Shown here: piece by piece, positions 508 through 41,703 of the stretch
How positions within the stretch are numbered: the stretch's first letter is position 1
Layout: every line of letters begins with the position of its first letter
DNA from: Rudanella paleaurantiibacter
Lineage (GTDB): Bacteria > Bacteroidota > Bacteroidia > Cytophagales > Spirosomataceae
DNA: 64,000 nt
Assembly: GCF_009184635.1 (NCBI RefSeq)
Contig: NZ_WELI01000014.1
Span: forward strand, 62,001-126,000
Reading direction: 5' to 3'
Made by a program: the position numbers and the translations under genes
Notes under the pieces: model-generated
Databases searched by the model: none
Told to the model about the DNA's origin: nothing
The model's input: the letters and a program-made list of their open reading frames with translations, nothing else

Positions 508-549
508 AACTACGACAAAATCCTCGTGAACTACGACAAAATCCTCGTG
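508..549 (+). repeat. two perfect tandem 21-bp iterons
   Basis: Two identical 21-base units lie head to tail at 508-528 and 529-549. The core is CTACGACAAAATCCTCGTG. The exact unit recurs in reverse complement inside a coding sequence at 31521-31541. Confidence 0.9.
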
Positions 550-764
550 AATAGGACGGCAACACTTACTATTTAGTATATTTCCCTTTTTGTTTTTTGT
601 TTTTTCTTTGTTTTCAGTATGGTAGAAGAACTATTGTTTTAGTTATGAGCATTGTTTTTTTAACCTTTAGAAGCCGTACTCACAAATTTTGGGAATTTTT
701 GGGTTTATTTACTATTTATGGTACTCCTTAACTCACTGATTGTCTGTAGTTTGTAAGTGTTAAA

Positions 765-910
765 TGCGACAGATTCCTCGTTTTATACGACAGATTCCTC
801 GCTGATTTACGACGGATTCCTCGTTTAATGCGACAGATTCCTCGTTGATCTACGACAAATTCCTCGTGAACTACGACAATATATTACGACTGTCGTTTTT
901 ATATGTCGTA
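765..910 (+). repeat. main iteron array of the origin
   Basis: Five copies matching TRCGACRRATTCCTCG start at 765, 786, 808, 829 and 851, spaced 21-22 bases apart, which is two helical turns. A partial copy begins at 872. The array ends in shorter TACGAC and TGTCGT units in both orientations (872-910). Such inverted half-iterons just before a rep gene often act as the Rep dimer operator, so rep is probably autorepressed here. Confidence 0.9.
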
Positions 911-24719: not shown

Positions 24720-25046
24720 CTCCGCCACCCGCATTTCCTCCACCATCTTATCAAAAATCACCACCTTCCTCCGATTCCGTATAGCCTGTTCGTTCTGCTG
24801 CGGCAGGTCGGAATTGTCAGGGTTAAATAGCCAGTCTGGGTTGATCTGGTGTTCCTGCACGTAGAAAAGGGCCAGCTTAAGCAGGGCTTCCACGCTTACG
24901 TTCAGGTCGCCCTCGGCCCGGAAGATGATATTCTGCCCTAATCCCAGCGTTTCCTGGAAGTCGCGTTGGGAGTGGCCAAACTGTGTTCTCAATTGCCCGA
25001 GCCGACGGGCCAGTTCTGTACGATAAGGGTCTATGTCAACGGTCAT
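24711..25046 (-). CDS. XRE-family transcriptional regulator
   Basis: This 111-residue protein has an N-terminal XRE HTH (residues 10-65: LARRLGQLRTQFGHSQRDFQ, then IIFRAEGDLNVSVEALLKLA) and a short charged C-terminal tail. It lies just 26 bases after the coupling-protein gene in the same direction, so the two are probably co-transcribed. It likely tunes transfer gene expression. No ligand domain is visible. Confidence 0.75.
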   Translation of the reverse strand: MTVDIDPYRTELARRLGQLRTQFGHSQRDFQETLGLGQNIIFRAEGDLNVSVEALLKLALFYVQEHQINPDWLFNPDNSDLPQQNEQAIRNRRKVVIFDKMVEEMRVAELV

Positions 25047-25072: not shown

Positions 25073-27073
25073 CTACGAGCCTGCCAGCAAATGGCTGAGT
25101 TCCGGGTCCTGCTCAATTCGGTCAAGCTCATCTGCCAGCAATGTATCAATGTCGGTTTTCACCTGTCGATAGTTCTGCTCCAGCAGCGTAGCCAGTGCGT
25201 CGTCGGATAACTGCTCCCGACTCGTCAGTTCTGGTATCGGGCCGAACGTCTGCATGTCCCGTTGCGTCGGTTCATCTACGATTAACTGCCCGTGAAAGAT
25301 TTTCTGACTGATCGTCTCGGCAAAATTATCGGCTACCGCCCCCACAAAAAAGCCCTGCGACAGATTACTTAGTTTAGACTCAGGAATCAGCGAATCAAGT
25401 TGGGTCGAAATGCTCGTCGTCGTGTCCCGGTCGCTAATGGTGTAGGACTGCCGACGCTGCACAATTTTCCCGAACCGGGCCGACAGTGTCTTGGCTGTTT
25501 CCCCCACTACCTGCCCCGAAAACACGTTGCCAACGGTGTTGAAAATCACGGTGGCCTCCTTGTCGCCATAGTCTCGCTTCAACTGGCTGAGGTCCTGCAA
25601 GCCCAAGCAGGTGGACACTTTATTGCTCCGCGCCGTGGCAATGAGGTTGTCAAGCCCCCGGAAATAGATCGTCGGTAGCTCGTCGATGATGATTGACGAT
25701 TTGAGCCGCCCTTTGCGATTGACCAAGCGAACGAGCCGGGCGTTATACAGACCCAGAGCCGCCCCATACACTTCCTGCCGGGTTGGGTTGTTCCCCACGC
25801 ACAGAATCTTAGGGGCCTTCGGGTCGTTGATCTCCAGCGTGAAGTCGTTACCCGTCATCACCCAGTAGAGCGCGGGCGATGCCAGCCGGGCGAGCGGAAT
25901 ACGAGCCGACGCAATCTGCCCCTCCAACTGCTCGAACGCCCGTTTCTTCAACGCACTCGCAAACGGGATGGTGTAGTTCTCGACATCGCGCTCTGACAGC
26001 AGCACCGGGAAAATTTTGTCGTACTCCCGGTTGGCAAACTCAATGACGTGGGGGAACGTACAAAAGCGGCCATTCTGGTACTTTTTCAGAAACCATATGC
26101 AGGCCGTCAGGAAGTTCATCGGCGATTCTACGAAGAAATCACCCTGCCGCTGAATCCACGTTTTGTTCAGATTGAGCAGTATGGTCCGGGCGGCTTCCTG
26201 CGCGTCCACGATGTCGGTCATGCCTTCGGGCGAAAGCGGATTGCAACGATGCGACCGGCGCGGATCGTCAAAGTTGATAACGTAGAATTTGGGACGTACC
26301 TCATAGCTGCGGTGGTGTTTCAGCAGGTAATTGTAGGCAATGGTCGAGAGGTCGGGGAATTTGAAATCGTAGATGTACATGGCGAACCCCTTCTCGATGT
26401 GCTGCCGGATGTAGTTGTTCACCACGGCAAACGACTTCCCGGAGCCGGGCGTACCCAGCACCATCGCGGCCCGGAACGGGTTCACGACATTAACCCAGCC
26501 CCGCCGATTCCGGTTTTTGTAGTAGTACTCCGTGGGAATGTTGATGGAGTACTCATTGCTGACCAGGTCTTCTTCCTGCGGAAATGATTCATTTTCCTCG
26601 TTGAAGAGGTCCTTATCCACCCGGATGTTGATGATGCGGTTAGCATCGCTGCCCGCCCTGATCAGCACCAGAAAGCCCGTGACGGTCGTAAGGGCGTAGC
26701 CGATGGCCCGCGAGTCAGCCGATAGCCAGCCGAGTTTGAATAGCACTGAGTTGCCGAAATACAACAGCAGCCCAACTCCCAGGCCCGTCAATACCCTGCG
26801 CCACGTAATCGTCAGCGTTTTGCGGGGTTTGTTTCCGAAGGTGTACACGGCCAACGGAATCAATGCTACCAGTTTGCTAACCGTTAGGCTATCGAACAGA
26901 TGCAGGTTCTGGTTGAGGTTGATTAGAAACTGATCGAGCACCGGCAGCGTCAGACCCCTGCGGTGCCAGGTATCGTACCCAACGTAATACAAGTGGGCGG
27001 CAATGACGGCAAATGCCAGATAAAGTATCACCGACAGTATGCCTCGATACTCCTTCTCCTGTTCTGAACTCAT
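25073..27073 (-). CDS. type IV secretion coupling protein (VirD4/TraG-type ATPase)
   Basis: This 666-residue protein links the relaxosome to the mating channel. The N-terminus has three to four membrane segments (about 12-32, 68-82, 95-112, 124-140). The Walker A is GTPGSGKS (207-214) and the Walker B lies in SSIIIDELPTIY. Later motifs, LGLQDLSQLKRDYG and TVIFNTVGNVFSGQ, are those of T4CPs of Bacteroidetes mobilisation modules. It is downstream of the relaxase gene, separated by 468 bases that carry iterons and a palindrome. All ATPase motifs are intact. Confidence 0.9.
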   Translation of the reverse strand: MSSEQEKEYRGILSVILYLAFAVIAAHLYYVGYDTWHRRGLTLPVLDQFLINLNQNLHLFDSLTVSKLVALIPLAVYTFGNKPRKTLTITWRRVLTGLGVGLLLYFGNSVLFKLGWLSADSRAIGYALTTVTGFLVLIRAGSDANRIINIRVDKDLFNEENESFPQEEDLVSNEYSINIPTEYYYKNRNRRGWVNVVNPFRAAMVLGTPGSGKSFAVVNNYIRQHIEKGFAMYIYDFKFPDLSTIAYNYLLKHHRSYEVRPKFYVINFDDPRRSHRCNPLSPEGMTDIVDAQEAARTILLNLNKTWIQRQGDFFVESPMNFLTACIWFLKKYQNGRFCTFPHVIEFANREYDKIFPVLLSERDVENYTIPFASALKKRAFEQLEGQIASARIPLARLASPALYWVMTGNDFTLEINDPKAPKILCVGNNPTRQEVYGAALGLYNARLVRLVNRKGRLKSSIIIDELPTIYFRGLDNLIATARSNKVSTCLGLQDLSQLKRDYGDKEATVIFNTVGNVFSGQVVGETAKTLSARFGKIVQRRQSYTISDRDTTTSISTQLDSLIPESKLSNLSQGFFVGAVADNFAETISQKIFHGQLIVDEPTQRDMQTFGPIPELTSREQLSDDALATLLEQNYRQVKTDIDTLLADELDRIEQDPELSHLLAGS

Positions 27074-27121: not shown

Positions 27122-27238
27122 AACTGCGACAAAAACCTCGTGGGCGGCACTCCGTCGGGCCACGTTCGGCTTGTCCGTTGAACTACGACAGATTCCTCGC
27201 GGAGTGCATGGCAATCCAACTACGACAAAATCCTCGCG
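27122..27238 (+). repeat. three dispersed copies of the origin iteron
   Basis: Copies lie at 27122-27142 (two or three mismatches), 27181-27201 and 27218-27238. The last is identical over 21 bases to the reverse complement of 31392-31412 and differs from the 508-528 origin iteron in the penultimate base only. Spacings of 59 and 37 bases are unlike the 21-22 base rhythm of the origin array. Confidence 0.85.
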
Positions 27239-27541: not shown

Positions 27542-28930
27542 TCATCGAATCCGGTGACTAATGACCGTATCTTCTGTCTTTAGGCCCTCGTTTCTGTTCG
27601 ACAGATTGGGTTGCTGAGGTTGCTCCAATGTTATTGGTTTACCTAATAGCTCACTGGCTCTGATCTGTGGCAACTGGCTCTGTTTGTATTCTTCAAACTG
27701 TCGGACAGTCAGAACAGCCTGTTCGAGCGGTATCCCTTCGCCCCGTAGCCTCTGAACTAACTCAGTAAACGGAAACTCCCCAACAAGCTCACTTTCCGCT
27801 TTGCCTGCCTGTTGTCTGTACTGTTCAAAAAGCCGGGAAATCTGCTGACCCAACTGCTTCCCGGTCTCCGGGCCGATATCTGTACGTACCTTCGCAGTGG
27901 CGTTCCCAAACTTTTTACTGAGCCGGTCATAGCTCCACGCCCCGCCTAATTCGGTCTCGTGCCAGACGTTCCCCCGGCTGTGATCGACGTACAGGTACGT
28001 TCCGTCTGTCTCGACAACCTGTACACCTGCACTACGAACTACGTTGTAGAAGTCGGCTTCGGTTAGTGACTGGTAGCCGGAAAGCTGTCGCCGGAGCGTG
28101 TTCAGCAGTTGTGGTTTCCGGTCAACCTTGCGCTCCTGGCCTTCTTTGAACAGTTCCTGCAATCGGTCAAACGTTGGTTTGCATTCCAGCTTGCTGGCCT
28201 TAATGGCTACAGAAATAGGCTTCGTGCCATCCGTCAGGCGGAACACGACACCCGTAATAGGCCGACCGCTGACCTTGTGATGAACCGTGCGGGCATCAAT
28301 ATGGTACGTGGACAGTAGCCGTTTCAGATCGTCGAAACTGCTGCTACTGTACCGGCTGGTTACACGTTCGAGCGTTGCTTCAATGGCGGCTTTTGTCTCC
28401 CGCTGGCCGAGTCGGCTCCGGGCCTGCCCCTCCCCTACCCCATCTTGTAATGCTGGCTTCTCCCCTTCGGCTTCGATAAGTCCGAACTTTCTTTCGAGTT
28501 GTTGCCGGATGGTGTTCATCCGGTTTCGGATAAACGTGTCCGAAATTTTTTGCCCCTTCCGGTCAACGCACACCGTTACGACGTGGACGTGCGGGTGCGC
28601 TGTATCGTGATGTCGGTAGAGCAGATACGGCTGCTTTCCGTACCCGGCCTCGTCAAGAAACTCTTGTGAAATACGTCGTAACAGGTCATTACCCATCCGC
28701 TCAGTCGGGTGGAATGCCAGCGACAGATGTACGGTCGGTTTCTCGACGCGGGGGTTGCCACTGGCCAGGAACTCCAGCATTTCCCGCTTCGCCAGCCACG
28801 AAGCCAGGGCCGTCTTCGGGTCGGGAAAGTTGCCAGCGGCCAGCCGTTCGGCATCGCCTTCCCGGACCTTCTGCTCATTGTAGAACAGGGCACCCGCTAT
28901 ATTTTTTCCGGTGAGCAGTCGTACAACCAT
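27542..28930 (-). CDS. MOBP-type relaxase
   Basis: This 462-residue relaxase/mobilisation nuclease nicks oriT and pilots the strand. The N-terminal 200 residues carry the family motifs: GKNIAGALFYNEQKV, HLSLAFHP, and the metal-binding histidines in YRHHDTAHPHVHVV (about residues 114-127). A Tyr suited as nucleophile lies near residue 18 (LFYNEQK). The C-terminal half is a helical region with no recognised domain. It overlaps the upstream accessory gene by 34 bases, as usual for mobBA-like pairs in Bacteroidetes. All metal ligands are present. Confidence 0.9.
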   Translation of the reverse strand: MVVRLLTGKNIAGALFYNEQKVREGDAERLAAGNFPDPKTALASWLAKREMLEFLASGNPRVEKPTVHLSLAFHPTERMGNDLLRRISQEFLDEAGYGKQPYLLYRHHDTAHPHVHVVTVCVDRKGQKISDTFIRNRMNTIRQQLERKFGLIEAEGEKPALQDGVGEGQARSRLGQRETKAAIEATLERVTSRYSSSSFDDLKRLLSTYHIDARTVHHKVSGRPITGVVFRLTDGTKPISVAIKASKLECKPTFDRLQELFKEGQERKVDRKPQLLNTLRRQLSGYQSLTEADFYNVVRSAGVQVVETDGTYLYVDHSRGNVWHETELGGAWSYDRLSKKFGNATAKVRTDIGPETGKQLGQQISRLFEQYRQQAGKAESELVGEFPFTELVQRLRGEGIPLEQAVLTVRQFEEYKQSQLPQIRASELLGKPITLEQPQQPNLSNRNEGLKTEDTVISHRIR

Positions 28931-29813: not shown

Positions 29814-30497
29814 ATGGCAGTATTCATTTCTATCTGTACGCAGAAGGGGGGCACCGGCAAGACGACCCTGACTATGCACATGGCGACCTACTTCCACGCA
29901 GTGGAGAAAAAGAACGTGATTGTGCTGGATGCCGACTTCCCGCAGCACTCGTTCTTTAACGAGCGGGCGCTTGAAATCACCAAGCTCCGGCAGGATACCG
30001 AACTCCTTGCCGACCTTCAGAAACAGGGCCGCGCCCCCTACGACGTAAGGAAAGTGTCGATGACCGATGCACCGGCTATGCTCGACAGTCTCGCCGATCA
30101 GCCCGATACGCTGGTATTTCTGGATATGCCCGGCACCATCAACATTGCGGGCTACGATCAGGTCGTCAAACGGCTGGACTACGTTATTCTGCCCATGGAA
30201 GCCGACAAGCTCACATTCGCAGCCGGCATGATGACTCTGGACGCTTTCAGTAAAATTGGGCGGACAAAAGGGAAGCCTCTAAAAAGCTATCTGCTTTGGA
30301 ACAAGTACAAGTCGAGCGAGCGGCAGGCTATCTACGAATCCATCGAGAGCATGGCCGCGCAGCGGGGTGACCTGACCATCCTGGAGACCCGGATTAAAGA
30401 TTCGGTGATTTGGAAAAACAACCGGTCAACGTTGTTTCCCCATCCCGAAATTAAAAGATTGATTTACGAGATAAATCAAAAATTTGCTTTGAATTAA
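29814..30497 (+). CDS. parA: ParA-family ATPase (TraA-like)
   Basis: This 227-residue ATPase has the deviant Walker A KGGTGKTT (residues 10-17), the Walker A' VLDADFPQHS and the Walker B TLVFLDMPGTI. The length is that of small, HTH-less ParA proteins (type Ib), which is also how TraA of Bacteroides conjugative transposons looks. It heads the rightward tra operon, followed after 17 bases by the DUF3408 protein, which may be its DNA-binding partner. It may serve in partition, in placing the transfer machinery, or both. The final codons overlap an inverted repeat. Confidence 0.9.
   Translation: MAVFISICTQKGGTGKTTLTMHMATYFHAVEKKNVIVLDADFPQHSFFNERALEITKLRQDTELLADLQKQGRAPYDVRKVSMTDAPAMLDSLADQPDTLVFLDMPGTINIAGYDQVVKRLDYVILPMEADKLTFAAGMMTLDAFSKIGRTKGKPLKSYLLWNKYKSSERQAIYESIESMAAQRGDLTILETRIKDSVIWKNNRSTLFPHPEIKRLIYEINQKFALN
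30459..30479. promoter_or_regulatory. inverted repeat at the end of parA
   Basis: TTGATTTA-CGAGA-TAAATCAA has perfect eight-base arms inside the last parA codons, about 36 bases before the next gene. The half site equals that of the 27479-27497 palindrome, so it may be an operator for the downstream tra genes. Confidence 0.4.
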
Positions 30498-30514: not shown

Positions 30515-31078
30515 ATGGCAAAAAAATCGAACAAGGGAGCAGCCGACGACATCGCGCTGATGGCAACCTCAGGCATCTCAGGCATTGGCTCTGACCTCGA
30601 CTCGTGGTTGTCGAAACAGGGCATCGGCGAGAGTCCGGCAGTAACTACTCCAGCGGCAATCGAAGTGCCGAAGGGAGCCGAGGAGCAGGAGCCGAAAGCC
30701 GTTCAACCACAGGCTAAGGCCCAGGTCACGCCGGTGGAAGCGGAAAAACAGGAGGAAAACGTCGTAGTTGCTCCCCGACAGGAGGAGAGCGTGAAGCAGG
30801 AGCCTGCTTCGGGAAAGCCAGGGAAGCAGCGGGAACGCTACGAAGCCCAGTTTTTCAAACGGATCGAAGGCTTTAAAAAGCCGACGAACATGATGTATAT
30901 GAGCGAGAAGACGTATCGGTTATTAACGTTTTTGCTCCGTAGTTCGAAAGAGAGCAATACGAAGATAACGATGCCGGAAATCTTAGAAAATATTGTCGCT
31001 CAACACATTAAGGACAATGAAAGTGTACTGAACCAGATGCAGAAAGAGCATCTGGAACGATTATCTAAAGGATTTTAG
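30515..31078 (+). CDS. DUF3408 (TraB-like) DNA-binding protein
   Basis: This 187-residue protein has a Gln/Glu/Ala-rich disordered middle (about 50-105). Its C-terminal domain (about 110-187) fits DUF3408: YEAQFFKRI, then MMYMSEKTYRLLTFLLR and ITMPEILENIVAQHI. DUF3408 folds as a ribbon-helix-helix-like unit and follows ParA in Bacteroides conjugative elements (TraB). It likely binds centromere-like repeats and works with the ParA ATPase. Its stop is five bases before the next start. Confidence 0.75.
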   Translation: MAKKSNKGAADDIALMATSGISGIGSDLDSWLSKQGIGESPAVTTPAAIEVPKGAEEQEPKAVQPQAKAQVTPVEAEKQEENVVVAPRQEESVKQEPASGKPGKQRERYEAQFFKRIEGFKKPTNMMYMSEKTYRLLTFLLRSSKESNTKITMPEILENIVAQHIKDNESVLNQMQKEHLERLSKGF

Positions 31079-31082: not shown

Positions 31083-31946
31083 ATGCCGGGTCGCGCCGGT
31101 CTTCGCATGTTATTGTGGATATCGGCGGCTGGCCTGGCTGGCGCAGGATGGTTTGGATGGCTGGTTTACCGGGACTACGATTGGACGGCATTCGGCTGGA
31201 ACAGTGTACGTTCCGCATCTAACAGCCGTAGTATGCCTTATACAAAGGCAAATACGGATACATATCAGAAAGACAGTCAGGCAGTTGCAATCGATGAGAA
31301 CGACCTGCTTGGCCAGACCAATACCCGGTGGGATGGGGTACATGATCTCACAAGTTTGTACCCGGCTGGGCAGACTCAGCCGGACGCGGCCCGCGAGGAT
31401 TTTGTCGTAGTTGACCCGTCGATGCCTGTCCAGCCGGAAGCTCAGGGGCTTGATTTTGACATGAATCCCTCCACTGAACCGGACGCGGCTCGACGGAGTG
31501 TCGCCCAACCGGATGCGACCCACGAGGATTTTGTCGTAGTTCAGCCTGCACAGCCCGAAATAGGCGTAAGCCCTTTCTTAGCTACGACAGACGAGGATTT
31601 TGTCGTAGTTCCTGATTCCGATCAGGAAGGCGAATCAGTGGAGTTACCCGAAGTGGACCTCACCGATTACGTCGATAGCTGGACGCCCATTGTTCCCAAG
31701 ATTGCCGCCCTCATCAGTCACGAGTTGTGGCCGCAACTCCGGTCTTATCTCGAATCGCTTCCACAGTTTGGAGATACCAACCTGGAGCGGGTTGTCAATG
31801 CTGTGGCCGAAGATGTCGGTGTCGGCGCGGCAAACCCCGATGGGGTAGGGGAGGGTCATGCGGGAGACCGACACACCGAAGGCTTCGCATTTTATGCCAG
31901 TCTCTTCGACGAAATGGCCCACGAGTCGGAATTAGCTGAGGTCTGA
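31083..31946 (+). CDS. membrane-anchored acidic protein with embedded origin iterons
   Basis: This is a 287-residue protein of unrecognised family in the tra operon. An N-terminal membrane segment (about 9-28, LLWISAAGLAGAGWFGWLVY) precedes a long acidic, Pro-rich, probably extended region. The last third may fold (LPEVDLTDYVDSW to DEMAHESEL). Residues 105-110, 148-153 and 171-176 each read EDFVVV, using the same six codons (GAG GAT TTT GTC GTA GTT). These codons are the reverse complement of the plasmid iteron. The surrounding QPDA(A/T) is also partly repeated. It occupies the traC/traD position of Bacteroides elements, but I see no similarity. Confidence 0.7.
   Translation: MPGRAGLRMLLWISAAGLAGAGWFGWLVYRDYDWTAFGWNSVRSASNSRSMPYTKANTDTYQKDSQAVAIDENDLLGQTNTRWDGVHDLTSLYPAGQTQPDAAREDFVVVDPSMPVQPEAQGLDFDMNPSTEPDAARRSVAQPDATHEDFVVVQPAQPEIGVSPFLATTDEDFVVVPDSDQEGESVELPEVDLTDYVDSWTPIVPKIAALISHELWPQLRSYLESLPQFGDTNLERVVNAVAEDVGVGAANPDGVGEGHAGDRHTEGFAFYASLFDEMAHESELAEV
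31392..31610 (-). repeat. three origin iterons inside a coding sequence
   Basis: Reverse-complement iterons lie at 31392-31412, 31521-31541 and 31590-31610. The first is identical to 27218-27238 over 21 bases, the second is identical to 508-528, and the third differs in one base. All are in the same reading frame. An opposed half site, CTACGACA (31582-31589), makes an inverted pair with the third copy. Confidence 0.9.
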
Positions 31947-32005: not shown

Positions 32006-32308
32006 ATGAAAAAGCCAAACGTGTGGTTGATGGCAGCGATACTGCTGCTGGTTTGTGTGGTGGGCGTTCACGCCGGCCCGATTGATTCGGGGTTAGAAAA
32101 GGCCGCTTCGGAGGTGAAGGGTACGTTCAAGTCCCTCACGAAGCTCATGTTTTACGTCTGCGCGGCCATCGGGGTAGTCAGTGCCATTCAGGTGTTTTCC
32201 AAGATGTCGAGTGGTGACCCGGATACCCGCAAGTCGGCTGGCTCCTGGGTAGGTGCGTTGATTTTTGCGGCTGTCTCGGTGGTGGTGCTCGAAGCGGTTT
32301 TTATGTAA
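32006..32308 (+). CDS. traE: TraE, DUF4134 conjugation membrane protein
   Basis: This 100-residue protein has a signal-like N-terminus (VWLMAAILLLVCVVGVHA) and two membrane segments (about 45-65 and 80-100), with the DUF4134 pattern (SKMSSGDPDTRKSAGSWVGA). It is comparable to VirB2 pilin-type proteins. Its last base is shared with the start of traF. Confidence 0.88.
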   Translation: MKKPNVWLMAAILLLVCVVGVHAGPIDSGLEKAASEVKGTFKSLTKLMFYVCAAIGVVSAIQVFSKMSSGDPDTRKSAGSWVGALIFAAVSVVVLEAVFM

Positions 32309-32640
32309 TGTTCAAGGTCAACAAAGGCATTGACCGGCCACCCGAAGTACTGGGCATCCGGGGAATGGATTTCATCTACTACCTGGCTGGAGCCGCCGTG
32401 GGCCTGCTTTTAGTGACCTGCGTGCTGATGTTCCTGTTCGGCATTCCAGCCAAGATTGCGTTTGGAGGCTACATCCTCGTGCTGCTGGTTCTGTACACCC
32501 TTTTCGCCAGGCTGTCGCAGCAATACGGAGAGCGGGGCATTAATAAACAGCGGGGCCGGAAACAACAGCCGGGCGTGGTGCTGGTACGGGACTCAGCGGT
32601 TTATCGGCAACTCAGGAAGACAACCGCCCGTCGGGCGTAA
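32308..32640 (+). CDS. traF: TraF, DUF4133 VirB3-like protein
   Basis: This 110-residue protein begins FKVNKGIDRPPEVLGIRGMD, the DUF4133 signature, followed by a membrane hairpin (about 22-45 and 48-66) and a basic tail (RGINKQRGRKQ). It is the VirB3-like inner-membrane partner of the TraG ATPase, whose gene follows after 15 bases. Confidence 0.9.
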   Translation: MFKVNKGIDRPPEVLGIRGMDFIYYLAGAAVGLLLVTCVLMFLFGIPAKIAFGGYILVLLVLYTLFARLSQQYGERGINKQRGRKQQPGVVLVRDSAVYRQLRKTTARRA

Positions 32641-32655
32641 CGAAAACTCAACGGT

Positions 32656-35172
32656 ATGAAAGTTCGCATGAAAGACATCCGGTCGGTGTTTCCGATTGGT
32701 GCTATTGAAAACGACTGCCTGCTCTCCAAGCATGGCGACATCACCGTTGCCTTTGCCCTGACGCTGCCCGAAATCTTCACGTTGAACGTGCAGTACGATG
32801 AGCGGGTCGAGCTGGGCGATTACCGGGAGTTATGCGAAGCCTGGACGAAAGCCATCGGCGTATTGCCTGTGCATACGATTGTCCATAAGCAGGATTGGTT
32901 CGTGGAGGAAAGCTACGCGCCCAGTGGTCAGGTGGCCAACTTCCTCGACAAGGCCAGTGAGCGGCACTTCAACGAACGTCCATTCCTGCACCACGCCTGC
33001 TACCTGTACATTACGAAAACGTATGCCGACCGGCACAATGCCTCGTCGGTACAAACCACGCTCTCTAAAGGTCGGCTGCTGCCGAGGGAATTCAGCGATA
33101 AACGCAAGATTGATGAGTTTCTGAATTCAATTGAGCAGTTCAAGGCAATTCTGGAAAGTACCCGGCGCATCACACTCCGGCGGCTAACCAACGAAGACCT
33201 GGCCGGGCGCGATGCTGATCGGAAAACCGGGAAAGCGGCTACGCCTGGACTGCTGGAACGGTATATGAGTTTGTCGCTGCGCGATGAAGTCGTTACGCTG
33301 GCCGACATTGAAATGGGGGAAGAGCTACGAGTAGGAGGCAAATACTCGAAGTTCTACACGATCTCGGACGTAGAAGACCTGCCCGAACAGCTTGGCACCA
33401 ACAACCGGTTGGAGAACCTGTCGTCGGAGAATTCCAACGTATCGGTGGGCTACGCGACGCCGGTGAGCCTGATGCTGAATTGCAACCACCTCTACAATCA
33501 ATACATCTTCGTCGAGGATCGGCAGCAGGTGTTTCCGCAACTGGAGCAGCGGGCCACGCAGATGCGGTCACTGTCGAACTTCTCGACCAACAACGAAGTG
33601 AATTCAAGGCTGATTGACCAGTTTCTGAATTATGCCGCCGAAACGGGCTATTCACCGGTGCGGGTGCATTACAACGTGCAGATCTGGACGGAGGACAAAG
33701 CTAAACTACCGGTGCTACGTAATCAGGTTACGTCGGCCATTGCGAAGATGGGCGTTCGGCCCCGTGAGAACAGTCTGGATGCGGCTACACTGTACTGGGC
33801 GGGTATTCCCGGCAATGCTGCCGATTTGCCCCGCGAAGACAAATTCTGGTCGTTCGTGCCCCAGGCGGTGTGTTTCTTCAATCACGAAACGAACTATCAG
33901 GACTCAGCCAGTACGCATGGGCTGAAACTGGTGGAACGGTTGTCGGGCAAGCCGATTCTGGTGGACCTCTCTGATGAGCCGATGGACAAAGGTTGGGTGA
34001 CCAACCGGAACAAGTTCATTATTGGGCCTTCGGGGAGTGGCAAGTCGTTCTTTACAAACCATGCGCTTCGGTCGTACCACACGCAGGGTAGCCACACCGT
34101 CATTGTCGACGTGGGGCATTCGTATCAGGGGCTATGCGCTCTGCTGGGTGGTCGGTATCTGACGTACTCCGAAGAATCGCCGATCAGCTTCAACCCGTTT
34201 TATATTGAGGGTCGTCATTACCCGGATGTCGAAAAGCGGGAAGCTCTGAAAGTACTGCTCCAGACGCTCTGGAAACGGAGCGACGAGCGGCAGACGATGG
34301 CTGAGTACACGGCACTGTCGGCTGCGATTACTGGCTACTACGAGCATCTGGCCCAGAACCGGGATGTTTTTCCGGGCTTCGACAGCTTCTACGAGTTTAT
34401 GGCGGAGGAGTTCAGGACCTACATCGCTGAACACAAACTGCGGGATGACTACTTCAACTACGACAATTTCATGTACGTGCTGAAGCCGTTTTACCGGGGT
34501 GGCGAGTACGCCTACCTGCTCAACAGCCGGGAAACGCTAGACCTGCTCCACGAAAGATTCATCGTCTTCGAGCTGGATAACATTAAAGACCACCCGATTC
34601 TGTACCCGGTTGTGACCATCATTATCATGGACACGTTTATCTCGAAGATGCGGAAGCTGGGCGGGGTACGTAAGATTATCCTGATCGAGGAAGCCTGGAA
34701 AGCGATCATGAAAGACGGCATGGCGGAGTACATCAAGTATCTGTACAAAACCGTGCGGAAATTCTACGGGGAGGCATGGATTGTAACGCAGGAAGTGGAC
34801 GACATCATCGGCTCGCCGATTGTGAAGGAATCCATCATCAACAACGCTGACACAAAGATTTTGCTCGATCAGCGGAAGTATCAGAACAAGTTCAAACAGG
34901 TGATGGACCTGCTGGCCCTGACGGTGAAAGAAAAGGACCTGTGCCTCTCGCTGAACCGCGACCTCGATCCGCGCCGGAAGTACAAGGAGGTGTTTATCTC
35001 ATGGGGCGGTCAGATGGCTAAGGTTTACGGGGTTGAGGTATCGCTGGAGGAGTATCTGGCGTTTTCTACCGAACAAACCGAAAAACTGCGGCTTCAGAAG
35101 AAAGTGTACGACAATGGAGGCAGCTACGACGTGGCCCTCCGCGAATACGCCGACGAAATCCGCTACGCATAA
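32656..35172 (+). CDS. traG: TraG, VirB4-family conjugation ATPase
   Basis: This 838-residue ATPase powers the mating channel. The N-terminal half holds the VirB4 domain of Bacteroidetes TraG proteins. The Walker A is IIGPSGSGKSFFTNH (near residue 455) and the Walker B is IILIEEAWKA (near 672), followed by VTQEVDDIIGSP and LLDQRKY. All motifs are intact and the length is normal. It is the largest and best-defined gene of the operon. An origin-like string at 34456-34469 inside it is a chance match. Confidence 0.95.
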   Translation: MKVRMKDIRSVFPIGAIENDCLLSKHGDITVAFALTLPEIFTLNVQYDERVELGDYRELCEAWTKAIGVLPVHTIVHKQDWFVEESYAPSGQVANFLDKASERHFNERPFLHHACYLYITKTYADRHNASSVQTTLSKGRLLPREFSDKRKIDEFLNSIEQFKAILESTRRITLRRLTNEDLAGRDADRKTGKAATPGLLERYMSLSLRDEVVTLADIEMGEELRVGGKYSKFYTISDVEDLPEQLGTNNRLENLSSENSNVSVGYATPVSLMLNCNHLYNQYIFVEDRQQVFPQLEQRATQMRSLSNFSTNNEVNSRLIDQFLNYAAETGYSPVRVHYNVQIWTEDKAKLPVLRNQVTSAIAKMGVRPRENSLDAATLYWAGIPGNAADLPREDKFWSFVPQAVCFFNHETNYQDSASTHGLKLVERLSGKPILVDLSDEPMDKGWVTNRNKFIIGPSGSGKSFFTNHALRSYHTQGSHTVIVDVGHSYQGLCALLGGRYLTYSEESPISFNPFYIEGRHYPDVEKREALKVLLQTLWKRSDERQTMAEYTALSAAITGYYEHLAQNRDVFPGFDSFYEFMAEEFRTYIAEHKLRDDYFNYDNFMYVLKPFYRGGEYAYLLNSRETLDLLHERFIVFELDNIKDHPILYPVVTIIIMDTFISKMRKLGGVRKIILIEEAWKAIMKDGMAEYIKYLYKTVRKFYGEAWIVTQEVDDIIGSPIVKESIINNADTKILLDQRKYQNKFKQVMDLLALTVKEKDLCLSLNRDLDPRRKYKEVFISWGGQMAKVYGVEVSLEEYLAFSTEQTEKLRLQKKVYDNGGSYDVALREYADEIRYA

Positions 35173-35173
35173 G

Positions 35174-35653
35174 ATGAGAAAGCAACGGATACTTCTATTC
35201 CTGTGGGCCGGACTGACGGCCTGCTCCGGTAACACCGGCTCTTCGGAGACCGGTGCCAGTTCAGCGACAAAGGACGTACCCGAATCATTCGTCGGGGCCT
35301 GGGTGAATGATGTGCCGGCACGAACACCGCCCGACCCTCAGCCGGACCATTATGACCGAACCGAGTATGTCATTCAGAAAAGCGGTGGTATAACCACGCT
35401 GACCAAGTACGCAGCCGCGGTCGACCTGAAAACCGGCAAAGAATGGTTTCGGAACCTGTCGGCTGGCCCGCTAACCTGCACGTATATACAAGATCGTGCG
35501 TGTCTGGCCTGTGGTGCTGATCAGCAGCCCGTAAAGGACAGTTTGTTTGTGAAATCGGGTAAGCTGGTCAATCAAAGCCCGCTTGCCTCTAACCGGACGG
35601 CAGCAGGTCGTGGCCCGCTCGTGCTCACCCGCAAGCCTGACAATAAACCCTAA
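35174..35653 (+). CDS. tra-operon lipoprotein, possible exclusion factor
   Basis: This 159-residue protein starts at the ATG at 35174, one base after the traG stop. The N-terminus (MRKQRILLFLWAGLTAC) is a lipoprotein signal with cleavage before Cys17. The mature domain starts with SFVGAWVND and ends with LVLTRKP, like a small lipocalin. Lipoproteins inside tra operons often prevent transfer into cells already carrying the element, but that role here is inferred from position only. Confidence 0.65.
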   Translation: MRKQRILLFLWAGLTACSGNTGSSETGASSATKDVPESFVGAWVNDVPARTPPDPQPDHYDRTEYVIQKSGGITTLTKYAAAVDLKTGKEWFRNLSAGPLTCTYIQDRACLACGADQQPVKDSLFVKSGKLVNQSPLASNRTAAGRGPLVLTRKPDNKP

Positions 35654-35668
35654 TGCAACGAAGTGCGG

Positions 35669-36421
35669 ATGAAATGTAAGTGGATTGGTACGGCCCTGTT
35701 AGCCTTCTTCCTGAACGCTGAGACTCACGCGCAGGCTATTCTGCCTGGTGATCGGATGGAGAGAGGTATGGAGGATGACATTACCCGGCAGATTGAGGAT
35801 ATTCTGGGCGAAGCTGAACGGGACATCATGCAGGGCATCAAGGACGAGCTGATGAACATCCTGGGTGATCTGTTGAACGTATCGCCGACGAGCGAGGTGG
35901 CCCGGCTGCGGAAGATGATGAAGGAAGGCTTCTCCCGGCAACAGAAGATTGAGTATCAGGACTACAAGGTCAATTACGAATGGAAGAAAGCGCACACGGA
36001 GCTTTCGCCTACGTTCGTAAAGTTTTATGACCAGCTCAACCTGAAGTCGGACTTCACGCAGGTTGGCAACGTAGCGACCCCGATACGGTCGCTGCTCAAC
36101 AAGGGTGTCTTTGCGCCGGGCGAGGCAACCGCCTACCGGAAAATCGTCGATCAGTTGGCCAACACCGATGACCTGGCCATGGAGGTGCGCTTCACAGTCA
36201 ATCTGGGCCAGAAAGCGGTATGGATGTCGGAGGGCGAACGGGTGAAAATACTGGAGAACGTACAGCAGGAGCTGGCCGACCGGCAGCGGGCCTTACGGGC
36301 CGTTCATGGCGAACTGCAACGGGCGTATGCTTACCGCGCCAAACAGACCTACGAGACGGCTGCGGCAAGGGCATTTTATAAAGACAAATCGAGTCTGAAC
36401 CGGTACGTCGGCAGCAAATAG
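35669..36421 (+). CDS. DUF4141-like periplasmic transfer protein, copy 1
   Basis: This 250-residue protein starts at the ATG at 35669 (a GTG two codons earlier is also open) and has a signal peptide (MKCKWIGTALLAFFL, ending near HAQA). The mature part is almost all helical (ITRQIEDILGEAERDIMQGIKDEL, then long Arg/Glu helices near the end). Its place between traG and traJ is that of TraI/DUF4141, a VirB5-like component. It resembles the next gene in layout, so the two may be diverged tandem duplicates. Confidence 0.6.
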   Translation: MKCKWIGTALLAFFLNAETHAQAILPGDRMERGMEDDITRQIEDILGEAERDIMQGIKDELMNILGDLLNVSPTSEVARLRKMMKEGFSRQQKIEYQDYKVNYEWKKAHTELSPTFVKFYDQLNLKSDFTQVGNVATPIRSLLNKGVFAPGEATAYRKIVDQLANTDDLAMEVRFTVNLGQKAVWMSEGERVKILENVQQELADRQRALRAVHGELQRAYAYRAKQTYETAAARAFYKDKSSLNRYVGSK

Positions 36422-36453
36422 CCAGCCTGACGCATCCGAAAACCTGTATTCTT

Positions 36454-37323
36454 ATGAAACGACTATTACGAGTCGGGCTGTGCTGCCTGACGGGTTGGGG
36501 TTTCTTTGCGCTGTCAGGAGCGCAGGCCCAACAATACGTACCCGGCGCGAGCGATCTACGCAACGGCCCGGCCTCCCAACGCGAACTGGAACAGGCCATT
36601 GATCAGCTACTCGGCGAGAACGAGCAGGCGATTATGAGCGGTCTGACCGATCCGGGCCTCGACTGGGGCAGCATCATTGCCGAGAAGGTACTGGATGAGG
36701 TGTACAAGGGACTTGCCGAGAGCACGGTGTTTTCCGTACCCGCCGTCACCATCATGCAGATGCGCTACAAGCAGAAGCAGCAGGCCCTCGCCGAAGAGCT
36801 ACGCAAACTGACCGCGCTGATGAAGGATGGGATGGGCCGTACCAACAAACTGCGGTATCAGAATCTGAAACTGCGGGTGGCCTATCAGAAAGCGATGAAC
36901 GAACTCCCGACAGGGTGGGAGCAGAATGGCCGGATGCCTAACGCGCAGAAGGTCATGAAAGACCTCTACGGCAACACGGTGAATCTGATCAACGACTACT
37001 ACGGCAAAGCCGACATCGAAAAACTGCTGAAAGACGAGTACCCCGGCGAAGTGGGGTATGCTCTGTTCGCTACGTCGGCGGGTGGGCTGGCCGATACTAA
37101 AGTGCTGGAAGCGAAGCTGGCCCTGGCAAAAAAGGGCGGGCGGCTAACGTACCTGTCTCCCTACGAGCGGCTGGAACTCATCCGGCAAACCCGGCAGGAG
37201 GCCCTGCGTCGGCAGAATGGTTTGATTCGGATGCGGCAGGATGTGAACTCGGCCATCAAATACCAGCAGAAACAACGAACCGAACGGCAGCTACGGCAGA
37301 AGCTCGGTACTACTACCTACTAA
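36454..37323 (+). CDS. DUF4141-like periplasmic transfer protein, copy 2
   Basis: This 289-residue protein has a signal peptide (MKRLLRVGLCCLTGWGFFAL, ending near AQAQ). The helical mature part resembles its neighbour: an early ELEQAIDQLLGENEQAIMSGL matches the other's IEDILGEAERDIMQGI, and both have LRKLTALMKDG / LRKMMKEG followed by an NLKLRVAYQKA / DYKVNYEWKKA helix. It is longer, with an extra LIRQTRQEALRRQNG tail helix. It probably works with TraJ, which follows after 12 bases. Confidence 0.6.
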   Translation: MKRLLRVGLCCLTGWGFFALSGAQAQQYVPGASDLRNGPASQRELEQAIDQLLGENEQAIMSGLTDPGLDWGSIIAEKVLDEVYKGLAESTVFSVPAVTIMQMRYKQKQQALAEELRKLTALMKDGMGRTNKLRYQNLKLRVAYQKAMNELPTGWEQNGRMPNAQKVMKDLYGNTVNLINDYYGKADIEKLLKDEYPGEVGYALFATSAGGLADTKVLEAKLALAKKGGRLTYLSPYERLELIRQTRQEALRRQNGLIRMRQDVNSAIKYQQKQRTERQLRQKLGTTTY

Positions 37324-37335
37324 CGCTTTATCAGG

Positions 37336-38364
37336 ATGCTATCGACAATTCTTTTACAGGCACCGGTAGCCTCATCGGTGGAGGTGGCCACTGAGCAACT
37401 GTTCGCTACAATGCGGCCCCACTTCGGCGATTTCATCTCGCTGGGGCAGGCCGTGGGCGGGCTGGGTGCCGTTTGCTACGTCTTCTATCGAATCTGGAGC
37501 GACTGGTCTCGCGGACAACCGATTGATGTTTTTCCACTGCTGCGGCCTATTGCGCTGGCCCTGGCCCTCATTGCTTACCCCTTTCTCGTCGATGGGCTGA
37601 CCGGCATTGGTAACGCACTGGATAGCGGCACCTCGACACTGGTGAACGACAGTCGGCAGGAGGTGAAGATTCTCAATGCTCAGAAAGATGCCCTGCTCAA
37701 GAAAAAGTGGGAACAGACCAATACTGAAATCATCACCGGCGAGGGTAGCGACTGGTGGTCGACGGCTCAGAAAGTGATTCCGGGGGTGGCCCTGGGTCGG
37801 CTGGCGGCCAATGCCATGCAGTACGGCATGAGCGTCTGGTTTGACGAAATGATCCGGTGGGTATCGGAGATGCTGTACACGGCTGCGGCAACTGGGCTCA
37901 AAGTGATTCAGACGTTCTTTCTGCTCATTCTCTTCATCGTGGGGCCACTGACGTTCGGGCTGGCCTGCTTCGACTGGTTCTATGGATCGCTGGCCACCTG
38001 GCTGGCGCGGGTCATCCACGTGATGCTGTGGATTCCGGTGGCCAACATTTTCGGCGGTATCATAGAGCAGGTACACATCACCATGCTCCGCATCGACATT
38101 GCCCAGTTGCAGAACACGGCTCCCGAAGCCACCGTCGGTACCGACTTCACGATGATTGTCTTTTATGTCATCGGTACCATCGGCTACCTGCTCGTGCCGA
38201 AAGTTACCGGCTGGATACTGGAATCGGCCGGGGTGGGCAGCGGGGCTTCGTCAGCCATTCAACCAATTGCCTCGGCAGGCAAAACAACGGTAAACGTCGG
38301 CAGTGCCGGGGCGGGTGCGCTGGCGGGTAGTGCGTCAGGACGGTTTCAACGGGCTATTCGCTAA
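37336..38364 (+). CDS. traJ: TraJ, VirB6-like polytopic channel protein
   Basis: This 342-residue inner-membrane protein has about seven hydrophobic segments: near 40-55, 68-85, 180-195, 198-220, 232-250, 270-290, and a Gly/Ala/Ser-rich tail. This is the layout of TraJ in Bacteroides elements. The conserved stretch FDWFYGSLATWLARVIHVMLW is typical. It probably forms the inner-membrane channel with TraG and TraK. Confidence 0.88.
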   Translation: MLSTILLQAPVASSVEVATEQLFATMRPHFGDFISLGQAVGGLGAVCYVFYRIWSDWSRGQPIDVFPLLRPIALALALIAYPFLVDGLTGIGNALDSGTSTLVNDSRQEVKILNAQKDALLKKKWEQTNTEIITGEGSDWWSTAQKVIPGVALGRLAANAMQYGMSVWFDEMIRWVSEMLYTAAATGLKVIQTFFLLILFIVGPLTFGLACFDWFYGSLATWLARVIHVMLWIPVANIFGGIIEQVHITMLRIDIAQLQNTAPEATVGTDFTMIVFYVIGTIGYLLVPKVTGWILESAGVGSGASSAIQPIASAGKTTVNVGSAGAGALAGSASGRFQRAIR

Positions 38365-38376
38365 TTCAACTACGTT

Positions 38377-39009
38377 ATGAACACTAATTTCAGATACCTG
38401 ACCAATTTGGAAAGCTCCTTTCGGCTGGTGCGGCTGGTAGCCATCGGCGCGATTGTACTCTCGCTGGCCTTTGCTGCGGTCGTTGCCTTCTGGGCGTTGG
38501 ACACGGTCGAGAAGAGCCGGGAGAAAATCTACGTGCTTGACAATGGTAAGTCGCTGACGCTGGCTCTCGCGCAGGATATGAACGTGAACCGGTCTGCCGA
38601 AGCAAAAGACCATGTCCGGGCGTTTCACCGGCTGTTTTTCAACCTCGACCCCGACGAAACGGCCATCGACACCCACATCCGCGAAGCGGCATACTACGGC
38701 GATGCATCGATCATGCGGCTCTACACGGACCTCAGGGAAAAAGGGTATTTCACCCAGCTTATTCAGGGCAACGTGATTCAGAAAGTGGAAGTTGATTCGA
38801 TTGCGTTGACAGGAAACCAGTCGCCTTTTTCGGTACGTACCTACGCCCGGCAATTGTTGGTGCGGGCCAACACCATCACCACGCGCCGACTCATAACTGA
38901 GTGCAACCTGATCGACATCGACCGGTCCGACAACAATTCGCACGGCTTCATGATTGAGCGGCTGAAAGTACTGGAAAACGGTGATCTCGAAACCATCAAC
39001 CGTGATTGA
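38377..39009 (+). CDS. traK: TraK, VirB8-like bitopic protein
   Basis: This 210-residue protein has one N-terminal membrane segment (about 22-45, LVAIGAIVLSLAFAAVVAFWAL) and a periplasmic domain, as in VirB8 proteins. The motifs LESSFRLVRLVAI and MNVNRSAEAKDHVRAFHRLFFN are those of Bacteroides TraK. Its stop overlaps the GTG start of the small membrane protein that follows. Confidence 0.9.
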   Translation: MNTNFRYLTNLESSFRLVRLVAIGAIVLSLAFAAVVAFWALDTVEKSREKIYVLDNGKSLTLALAQDMNVNRSAEAKDHVRAFHRLFFNLDPDETAIDTHIREAAYYGDASIMRLYTDLREKGYFTQLIQGNVIQKVEVDSIALTGNQSPFSVRTYARQLLVRANTITTRRLITECNLIDIDRSDNNSHGFMIERLKVLENGDLETINRD

Positions 39010-39289
39010 CCTACGCCCGAACCCCAATCCACTACGCCAATTACTCAGGCGGCTGTGGTGGGTATCGGCCCGGTACCTGCTGCGGCAGGTACGTGGCTGG
39101 GAAAGGCATCCACTACAACTACGGCGACTGGCCCTCCTGACAGCGTTTGCCGGTGTGCTATGCCTACTGGCTCTGAGCGTCCTTTATGGCCGCCAGCATC
39201 TGTTTAAAAACACGCATTCCCAAAACTCGACAAATACTCTGTATGGCAACTCTGACACAAACCGGACAGCACAAGCGCGACGTCCGTGA
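39002..39289 (+). CDS. small TraL-like membrane protein
   Basis: The frame opens at 38981, inside traK. I favour the GTG at 39002, which overlaps the traK stop and gives 95 residues (VIDLRPNPN...). One hydrophobic helix (LRRLALLTAFAGVLCLLALSV) follows a very basic N-terminal part. It holds the traL position but shows no clear sequence match. Its 3' end overlaps the traM start by 47 bases. Confidence 0.55.
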   Translation: MIDLRPNPNPLRQLLRRLWWVSARYLLRQVRGWERHPLQLRRLALLTAFAGVLCLLALSVLYGRQHLFKNTHSQNSTNTLYGNSDTNRTAQARRP

Positions 39290-40571
39290 ACTCCTTGCCG
39301 ATGGGCGGTTTCGGCTGGCCCTCGGCCTGTTGCTCCTGTCTATCTCCGCTTTTGTAGTTCACCAGGTGAAGAACCGCGAACCTGAACTACTTGAAGCCAA
39401 TAACCTCAACACGACCGTACCCTCTGCCCTCGTCGATTCTACATCGAAATCGAAATTAGACCTGATGGCACAGGCGCACGAGTCGGTGCCGATGGCTCTG
39501 CCCGGTGCAGACAGTCAGGCATCGCTTACAGCTACCGGTGCAGGGATGCAGCCGCTCGGCGCTCCGACGGTCGGCGTTCCAACGGTTAGCCCCTCGTCAC
39601 CGGCTGTGTCGCCTTCGATGGCGTTGCCTGGCATGACTGGTGCAGCAAGTGGGGGAGGGGTAGCTGCTGCGCCCGGCGCGTCCGTTCCGGGTTCGCTCGA
39701 CCGGTATATGTACCGCCGAAACGTCCCCACCGATGAGGAGTTCAAAACGCTCAGCGACTACTACGAAACGCCTGCTGAATCGGCACCGAACCGGTCCTCA
39801 GCCCGTCCTCGTACTGTGGCACACAACGACGATGAGGATGATAATGATGATAAACCCCAGGCATCGCCCGCCGTGCAATACAAAAAAGCCCAGGACCTCA
39901 ACCGGCTGAAATCCCTGCTCGAAGAATACAAGCGCGACAAGGACGCTAAGGCGGTGGCCCGTCAGGAAGCTGAATTAAAGCCCCAAAAGCTGGCGAAGTC
40001 GGATGTGGTGAGCGGTCTGGATGGCCTCGACCGGTCGCGGAACAGTTTCTATGGACTTTTCTCGCAGGAATCCCGTCAGGAGAGCGAAAGCCGCGATGAG
40101 GCCATTAATGGTACCTTCCGTGCTGTTATCAACCAGAATCAGACGGTTGTGAACGGGGGGCGCGTTCAACTGCGGCTGCTGGAAGACATGACGATTCAGG
40201 ACGTGGTCATCCCTCGCGGAACACTGCTCTACGGCGTGGGCAACTTTGGCGCAGAGCGGGTAGGGGTGCAGATCACATCGGTGCAGCTTCAAAACCGCAT
40301 TTACCCGATTCGGCTATCGGTGTATGACATGGATGGATTACCCGGCATCTACGTACCCAACGTGATTGCGGTGCAGGAAGGACGGCTGGCAACCGCGCAG
40401 GCCATTGGCGGGGTGAACATCAATACGCCAACCAGCGGCAGCAACATTGGTCAGGCAGCGGCTGCTTCAGCGGCTCAGGCAGGGGTACGTGGGGTGCAGA
40501 ACCTATTCCAGCGCAAAGCCCGATTACAGAAAGCCGCCCTGAAGAGCAATTACTACGTATTGCTGCGATAG
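39243..40571 (+). CDS. traM: TraM, VirB10-like transfer protein
   Basis: This 442-residue protein starts at the ATG at 39243 (MATLTQTGQHKRDV), which fits TraM proteins better than the longer frame from 39186. One membrane segment near 30-48 is followed by a Pro/Ala/Gly/Ser-rich spacer (90-165), an acidic low-complexity run (DDEDDNDD), a coiled coil and a C-terminal beta domain with IPRGTLLYGVG and the VQITSV strand. This is the TraM/VirB10-like bridge between the membranes. Confidence 0.9.
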   Translation: MATLTQTGQHKRDVRELLADGRFRLALGLLLLSISAFVVHQVKNREPELLEANNLNTTVPSALVDSTSKSKLDLMAQAHESVPMALPGADSQASLTATGAGMQPLGAPTVGVPTVSPSSPAVSPSMALPGMTGAASGGGVAAAPGASVPGSLDRYMYRRNVPTDEEFKTLSDYYETPAESAPNRSSARPRTVAHNDDEDDNDDKPQASPAVQYKKAQDLNRLKSLLEEYKRDKDAKAVARQEAELKPQKLAKSDVVSGLDGLDRSRNSFYGLFSQESRQESESRDEAINGTFRAVINQNQTVVNGGRVQLRLLEDMTIQDVVIPRGTLLYGVGNFGAERVGVQITSVQLQNRIYPIRLSVYDMDGLPGIYVPNVIAVQEGRLATAQAIGGVNINTPTSGSNIGQAAAASAAQAGVRGVQNLFQRKARLQKAALKSNYYVLLR

Positions 40572-40593
40572 ACAGTAACACTATAAAACTGTA

Positions 40594-40610
40594 TTACTAA
40601 TTTTTAGTAA
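40594..40610. promoter_or_regulatory. palindrome upstream of traN
   Basis: TTACTAA-TTT-TTAGTAA lies 10 bases before the traN start. It shares the ACTAA / TTAGT half sites of the two palindromes in the mob-parA region (29489-29501 and 29606-29618), so it may belong to the same regulon. Confidence 0.45.
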
Positions 40611-40620
40611 AACTGAAATC

Positions 40621-41703
40621 ATGAAAAAGATTGTCTGTTTCCTGCTGATTGGAAGCACATCACTGACGAGCGTTTACGCCCAAAAGAAAGCAATTCCCGC
40701 ATCGTATAAACGCCGGGCTGTGTCCTCGACCTCTACGGCGCTGGCTACGTCGGCGAAAGGTCCGGTGAACGTACCCGCTTCGCTCGGCTCTGACACAGCC
40801 CCAGCAATGCCGGCAGCTCCGGCGAATACGGCGGCTACTCCAACGGCCCTGTTACCGGAAATGGCCGCGCCGACTGCGCAGGTTATTCGGTCGTACCCGG
40901 TTGAGCTGGCCTATAACAAAACGGTGAGCATCATTTTTCCGGCTCCGGTGCGCTCCGTTGATCTGGGGAGCCGCGACATCATCGCCGATAAAGCCGCCGA
41001 CGTCGAGAACGTTCTAAAAGTAAAGGCTAATCAAATCGGGTTCAACGAAACAAACTTCTCGGTCATCACGGCCGATGGAAAGTTCTACAGTTTCGTAGTC
41101 AGCTACAACGAAAGCCCGGCTGCCCTGGCCATGAATCTGGTGGGCGACCAGGTCAATCTGAAAGCTCGCACACAACCGCTCGGCGGAACGGAATCGCAGG
41201 CTGGTCAATCCAGACCGGGGCAATCCAGCCCGGGTTCCGTGCATTTCGCCAATGTAGCGGCCTCTCAGTCTGATCTGGCTCTGGCCAGCGACCGCGTGCT
41301 GCACAAAGCCCGCCGAATCCGGCGCATCGGTGATGATCGCAGTAAGATGGCCGTGAAGCTGAAAGGCGTTTTTGTGAAAGAAAACGTCCTGTATTACCGC
41401 GTGGCGTTCCGCAACCGCTCAAACCTCAACTACGACCTCGATTACGTCCGCTTCTTTATCGTTGATAAGACCGTTGCCAAAGAAGCCTCCCATCAGGAAA
41501 TCGAGGTACGCCCGATCTACATCCATAACGGCCCCATTCGCACCGTGAAAGGCCATTCGCAGGTCGAGAAAGTTTACGCTTTCCAGCGGTTCACCATCCC
41601 CGCCGACAAGGTCTTGCAGGTCCAGACCGGCGAACACAACGGCGGGCGGCAACTGGCATTTTCGGTGAATAATCGGGTGATTATGAAGGCGAAGCCGTTG
41701 TAA
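40621..41703 (+). CDS. traN: TraN, VirB9-like transfer protein (DUF4138)
   Basis: This 360-residue protein has a signal peptide (MKKIVCFLLIGSTSLTSVYA). It has a Pro/Ala-rich linker (about 40-85) and the DUF4138 domain, whose landmarks are YPVELAYNKTVSIIFPAPVRSVDLGSRDI, VLKVKANQIGFNETNFSVI and LNYDLDYVRFFIVDK. It is an outer-membrane-associated channel protein. It is the last gene of the operon and is followed by a strong terminator. The traO-traQ genes of Bacteroides elements are not seen after it. Confidence 0.92.
   Translation: MKKIVCFLLIGSTSLTSVYAQKKAIPASYKRRAVSSTSTALATSAKGPVNVPASLGSDTAPAMPAAPANTAATPTALLPEMAAPTAQVIRSYPVELAYNKTVSIIFPAPVRSVDLGSRDIIADKAADVENVLKVKANQIGFNETNFSVITADGKFYSFVVSYNESPAALAMNLVGDQVNLKARTQPLGGTESQAGQSRPGQSSPGSVHFANVAASQSDLALASDRVLHKARRIRRIGDDRSKMAVKLKGVFVKENVLYYRVAFRNRSNLNYDLDYVRFFIVDKTVAKEASHQEIEVRPIYIHNGPIRTVKGHSQVEKVYAFQRFTIPADKVLQVQTGEHNGGRQLAFSVNNRVIMKAKPL

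Follow-up and report, generated by a model that had tools for sequence, protein, structure and literature searches.

Genes and iterons of the transfer region

The window is a stretch of 64,000 nucleotides from Rudanella paleaurantiibacter (G000:C3:62001-126000), within an assembly of 6.72 Mb. It contains rep, the gene for a Rep_3 replication initiator, and two transfer operons (Table 1). Rep has both the WH1 and the WH2 domains of Rep_3 initiators. Tandem direct repeats of 20-22 bases, the origin iterons, lie 5' of rep in two blocks, and arrays like this one are also observed in nine other replicons of the same Rep family.

The genes from 29814 onward follow the order known from Bacteroidota transfer operons, with ParA-like, DUF3408, traX, DUF4134, DUF4133, and TraG ATPase. 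The name traX is coined here for the third gene. Its probable start is 31107 (M of RMLLWIS, conserved in orthologues), not 31083 as given by the ORF finder. TraX has a hydrophobic stretch at the N-terminus, a variable middle, and a conserved C-terminal half, and it matches no Pfam family at E 0.001. The later tra genes, up to TraN, were named by their position relative to annotated plasmids. The XRE-like gene was named by likeness and by the annotated XRE gene at the same place in pSLIN01. Scans for sigma-70 promoters and for terminators gave matches at the shuffle level only, and no promoter was identified; the Bacteroidota promoter consensus had no match either.

Table 1. Coordinates of the genes and iterons in the window.
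Feature	Position	Strand	Remark
Origin iterons, two perfect tandem copies	508..548	+	repeat scan
Origin iterons, tandem, more degenerate	762..867	+	just upstream of rep
rep, Rep_3 initiator (WH1 + WH2)	953..1840	+	Pfam PF01051 4e-33, PF21205 3.7e-17
XRE-like gene	24711-25046		next to the coupling-protein gene
Coupling protein (T4CP, YWFCY/TraG-D)	25073..27073	-	starts about 50 bases from the mob-gap iteron cluster
Mob-gap cluster, 3 iterons	27122..27237	+	27122-27141, 27181-27200, 27218-27237; in the gap separating the relaxase gene from the coupling-protein gene
Relaxase (MobA/VirD2-like)	27542..28930	-	PF03432 7e-28
ParA-like gene	29814..30497	+	tra operon gene 1; Pfam
DUF3408 gene	30515..31078	+	tra operon gene 2
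traX	31107..31946	+	third tra operon gene; start chosen from orthologues
traX iteron copy 1	31393..31412	-	GCGAGGATTTTGTCGTAGTT on the + strand; encodes EDFVVV; conserved in orthologues
traX iteron copy 2	31522..31541	-	exact match to origin iterons; encodes EDFVVV
traX iteron copy 3	31591..31610	-	encodes EDFVVV
tra genes 3' of traX	32006..41703	+	DUF4134, DUF4133, TraG ATPase, then to TraN
TraG ATPase	32656-35172	+	

traX contains the Rep_3 origin iteron three times, as in-frame copies of 20 bases. The 18-mer GAGGATTTTGTCGTAGTT is found at 31395-31412, 31524-31541, and 31593-31610, always in the single frame that gives EDFVVV. The initial annotation had described three reverse-complement iterons in one frame, each encoding EDFVVV with the same codons (GAG GAT TTT GTC GTA GTT), and this description was confirmed. 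The two identities over 21 bases also hold: positions 508-528, with the tandem repeat at 529, are identical to 31521-31541 when reverse-complemented, and 27218-27238 matches 31392-31412.

The 21-mer CTACGACAAAATCCTCGTGAA occurs at seven places in the window with up to three mismatches, against a mean of 0 in 30 simulated sequences with the dinucleotide frequencies of the window, and a chance origin of these matches was therefore rejected. A possible fourth copy in the DUF3408 gene (30750-30769, EENVVV, five mismatches) is treated as chance, and neither orthologue conserves it. In the whole assembly, the 18-mer at up to two mismatches has 11 matches, eight on the contig of the window and three on two other contigs. 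All eight fall at the origin, in the mob gap, or in traX. Apart from the origin, the mob-gap and traX clusters account for every iteron found on this contig. The replicon thus has additional origin-type iterons at 27122-27237 and 31393-31610, as expected of control iterons. They are not placed beside the origin or rep like a control-iteron locus, but at distances of 26 and 31 kb.

The same contig has another Rep_3 gene, a distant one, outside the window (G000:C3:5649-6080, in a frame of 407 aa). The 18-mer scan of the assembly showed no copy of the window iteron near it.

Conservation of the traX iterons at the DNA level

traX is present in three of the 222 genomes of the family, its own genome included. 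The other two replicons are scaffold 14 of Spirosoma sordidisoli TY50 (G226, C6; 105,845 bases) and contig 3 of Fibrella rubiginis HMF5335 (G010, C23; 587,459 bases). The orthologues in S. sordidisoli and F. rubiginis are 55% identical to traX of the window. The Rep proteins encoded on the same contigs are 95% (Fibrella) and 91% (S. sordidisoli) identical to that of the window, and the origin iterons are the same. Each traX orthologue has exactly three copies of EDFV(V/A)V.

The mob-gap cluster is also observed in all three replicons, with three iterons in the window and five in each relative when degenerate copies are counted. Its iterons have the same orientation relative to the coupling-protein gene as the traX iterons have relative to traX. 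The accessory sites of S. sordidisoli and Fibrella, too, are not beside the origin or rep but about 12 to 23 kb from it along the contig. With the 16-base core at up to one mismatch, sites in G010 and G226 are found at the origin, in the mob gap, and in traX; the remaining matches are single hits on other contigs, one and two in number. The bare 16-mer core at one mismatch is unspecific, with matches in 62 of the 222 family genomes, many of them single; single hits within long ORFs or on other contigs (for example, in G197, G215, and G225) were taken as chance.

In S. sordidisoli and Fibrella, the first degenerate mob-gap copy encodes the last codons of the relaxase (RGIRRN), and the stop codon straddles its end. 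The open frames of these relaxases (746 and 756 codons) extend into the iteron cluster. The relaxase frame of the window has at most 470 codons, and its C-terminus seems to be shortened.

The wider distribution of traX was searched in several collections. A profile search of 390 genomes of the order found traX in two (its own and Fibrella), plus two weak hits. One weak hit is in the accessory-site region of G220 and has two stops; the other is an 80-residue C-terminal match within a frame of 1042 aa. PLSDB gave no traX match at E 1e-5. The peptide scan of genome contigs gave no traX match, though the set includes the S. sordidisoli and Fibrella contigs carrying traX. The exact 18-mer was found in 40 stretches among 84,980 genomes. 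Except on the Rep-family or origin-like contigs found in Spirosoma, Fibrella, Runella, and Telluribacter, these stretches stand alone, and no locus has more than one additional site at two mismatches. IMG/VR contains three isolated 18-mer matches.

The motif is encoded by GAG GAT TTT GTC G[T/C]A GTT in nine of the nine copies across the three orthologues. At residues shared between orthologues, the codons are identical in 52 of 52 cases inside the motif versus 152 of 345 outside it. The three pairwise comparisons give 17/17, 18/18, and 17/17 inside, and 44/109, 49/117, and 59/119 outside. For the pair of the window and Fibrella, (49/117)^18 is about 1.6e-7, on the simplifying assumption that codons are independent. 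The exact codon string has a probability of about 7e-4 per copy, based on the codon usage of ten tra-operon genes including traX.

The conserved block extends from -2 to +17 around GAG, which is the iteron itself. Beyond this block, no column is common to more than seven of the nine copies in the 42 bases viewed. Column counts come from the coding copies alone, since four rows in the table of non-coding copies are shifted by three bases. The bases at -2 and -1 are constantly AC (GC once), while the residue varies among R, H, D, or N. The sole variant inside the motif, GTA to GCA, replaces V with A, and the same base change is seen in the mob-gap iteron at 27122-27141. By these comparisons, selection acts on the DNA and not on the peptide alone, as is established in three genera, since codon identity at every shared residue is seen only inside the motif, the two preceding bases are kept while residues change, and the variant changes the residue. 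The initial annotation had claimed from the window that conservation is at the level of bases rather than of protein alone; the homologues bear this out, with no synonymous change in the motif.

The same gene order, by annotation or by position, is found in S. linguale pSLIN01 and in plasmids of S. oryzicola and Fibrella, whose TraG is 72-73% identical. EDFVVV is absent from the 225-codon positional counterpart of traX in these three related operons. Their repeats are short and in two copies only, including one of 20 bases inside the traX counterpart of S. oryzicola; this search was limited to the operons. No 20-base two-copy repeat was reported in the traX counterpart of S. linguale.

It could be argued that the EDFVVV peptide itself matters, for example as a docking motif in a disordered region, and that the identity of the DNA is incidental or due to recent duplication. 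The presence of three copies in one frame in each of the three orthologues is consistent with it. This explanation is nevertheless very improbable. Against it are the restriction of complete codon identity to the motif and the two bases kept ahead of a changing residue. The same DNA is also kept in the mob gap and, without a covering ORF of at least 60 aa, in G001 and G220. The codon test and these copies outside genes ruled out the peptide motif as the selected unit. As to whether the peptide is a by-product or has its own role, which had been left undecided at first, the by-product is favoured by the three related operons, whose counterparts do without EDFVVV.

The Rep family and the candidate binder

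Among 14 genomes examined, ten replicons encode a Rep 65-100% identical to that of the window (G000, G010, G001, G226, G220, G193, G194, G190, G017, and G242). The same iteron, with zero to three core mismatches, is located upstream of rep in all ten. The iteron thus co-occurs with one type of Rep. Six Hymenobacter plasmids with a diverged Rep (39-43% identical) have quite different origin repeats. Taken with the patchy occurrence of DUF3408 and XRE-like genes described below, this makes Rep the likely binder of the traX and mob-gap iterons.

Binding by another protein, either the ParA/DUF3408 pair or an XRE-like regulator, would make the repeats partition or regulatory sites. The ParA-like and DUF3408 genes directly adjoin traX, an XRE-like gene is present at 24711-25046, and the sites on G000:C2 and G001:C2 are upstream of another such gene. 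However, a DUF3408 gene was found in four of the ten iteron-bearing genomes and not in the other six, and an XRE-like gene in five of the ten, so neither is a general binder. The iterons do not co-occur with partition genes as parS sites do, being present in six genomes without a DUF3408 hit (the search was for DUF3408 only), and DUF3408 was rejected as the binder for this reason. In addition, the repeats form an array 5' of rep in all ten replicons of the Rep family. A binder other than Rep is thus quite unlikely.

Accessory iterons in the seven other members of the Rep family are beside the origin in three, beside a mobility module and tra remnants in one, and absent in three. The two Telluribacter replicons (G017 and G242) have ten accessory iterons each, located upstream of the origin as a long array with irregular spacing of 52-93 bases (up to two mismatches; those of G242 were taken from a separate scan of its region). 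No ORF longer than 105 aa covers these arrays. In S. oryzicola NZ_CP089545 (G220), three accessory iterons precede the origin. None was seen in the three Runella plasmids, whose Rep is 67-70% identical, either in the whole genome at one mismatch or in the fetched stretches at three. It follows that not every member of the Rep family needs accessory iterons.

The fourth case, G001, is from the same genus as the window and its Rep is 92% identical. It has five sites on C2, beside TraJ/M/N remnants and an XRE-like gene, and there is no TraG match on this contig. Part of this array, together with the XRE-like gene, is homologous to a stretch of G000:C2 (71% over 1165 bases). The idea that the G001:C2 sites are traX sites that outlasted their gene was dropped because of this homology. 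The array may come from a second mobility module. On G000:C2 (L125, 143000-159715), two iterons with one mismatch, at 150759 and 151269, lie upstream of an XRE-like gene. Genes for ParA, a DUF3408-like protein, and a relaxase are close by, and the one Rep_3 match on G000:C2 is distant.

The six Hymenobacter plasmids were chosen for carrying both a related Rep (39-43%) and the TraG operon. In five of them, three to eight accessory copies of the plasmid's own iteron lie near the origin; the exception is NZ_CP110137, with none at two mismatches. In the transfer genes scanned, a copy of their own iteron was found in none of the six, apart from one two-mismatch match at chance level in the TraG gene of NZ_CP095066. 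These scans covered two plasmids whole and four over the rep and tra stretches, with the gap between the relaxase and coupling-protein genes surely covered in four. At 5917-10211 of NZ_CP095066 (L114), two replication initiator genes follow one another, each with a distinct repeat array ahead of it; the annotation splits the first of them into two pieces.

Proposed role and comparison with known systems

The in-frame copies in traX are probably accessory (control) iterons, serving the Rep_3 initiator of the same plasmid and selected as DNA. Together with the mob-gap cluster, they would constitute a control locus bound by this Rep. Rep bound at the accessory iterons would most likely titrate Rep and/or handcuff with origin-bound Rep, and the copy number would be held down, like by incC in F. 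From the sequence of the iterons in the transfer region, we infer both the binding of Rep and the handcuffing. Control of copy number is the most economical role.

The placement of the clusters in both transfer operons, before the coupling-protein and mating-pore genes, suggests that bound Rep would probably also hinder transcription into these genes. Transfer would thereby be linked to the level of Rep. As far as position only can tell, a roadblock of Rep on transfer is plausible, and the link to transfer is speculative. It is a tentative possibility that Rep doubles as a transfer regulator, its level gating transcription of the coupling-protein and mating-pore genes, with the copy number setting horizontal transfer.

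A stronger version is that the sites serve mainly for transfer control, where Rep would either repress both transfer operons or act as a roadblock to elongation within them. The two clusters are at similar places in the operons (after the relaxase gene and in the third tra gene) and in one orientation relative to transcription, in three of the three traX replicons. Beyond the origin array, no accessory sites were seen near those three origins, and the accessory sites of G001 are beside a mobility module and tra remnants. All this is consistent with transfer control. However, the three replicons share ancestry, and their location within transfer operons represents one evolutionary event from a single shared ancestor. 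G017, G242, and G220 keep accessory iterons without this transfer system on the contig, and in the six Hymenobacter plasmids, whose operons are laid out in the same way, the scanned transfer genes contain no clear copy of the plasmid's own iteron. Transfer control as the main function is thus rather unlikely. It is equally doubtful that plentiful Rep shuts transfer down and that scarce Rep, as might follow arrival in a new cell, lets it open. By themselves, the three traX replicons are compatible with control of copy number as well as with control of transfer. Among the relatives whose contig lacks this transfer system, three keep accessory iterons beside the origin, one beside tra remnants, and three have none; replication control is therefore likely to be the basic role, and the coupling with transfer an extra.

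The balance between the copying of a plasmid within a cell and its transfer to other cells is a long-standing question. The traX iterons may imply that copying and transfer are under joint control; if this is true, the vertical copy number would directly set horizontal transfer. Here, selection has maintained a presumed Rep-binding signal within a transfer gene of three genera. It is a clean natural case of a DNA signal overlapping with protein code. Synonymous recoding could remove the signal and leave the protein untouched, so the question is directly testable.

Control iterons are known from several replicons. The incA locus of P1 consists of accessory (control) iterons, and both F incC and P1 incA lie next to rep or the origin. 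The FIA replicon of F is stated to be controlled by handcuffing of oriV with incC; handcuffing is also predicted for FIB, which has iterons both upstream and downstream of rep (PMC11983097). The iterons reported here resemble F incC, the FIB downstream iterons, and P1 incA in that the origin iteron recurs elsewhere on the same replicon. They differ from the control iterons of F, FIB, and P1 in their distance (26 and 31 kb), in their location in two transfer operons, and in that three of them are inside a protein-coding gene. Among the papers listed in searches of the open PMC literature, no title or opening of an abstract mentions iterons within transfer genes.

Sites for RctB outside the origin of Vibrio cholerae chromosome II inhibit or enhance replication (PMC3937223). 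They are similar in being initiator sites away from the origin, with binding in the present case predicted from sequence, while the RctB system differs in acting on chromosome replication and in being unconnected with conjugation. Coding sequences of initiator genes that contain iterons or origins are known from prgW/repA of pCF10/pAD1 and from the RepABC origin in repC. As in prgW/repA and repC, replication signals in traX double as protein code, but the gene that hosts them is a transfer gene, not an initiator gene.
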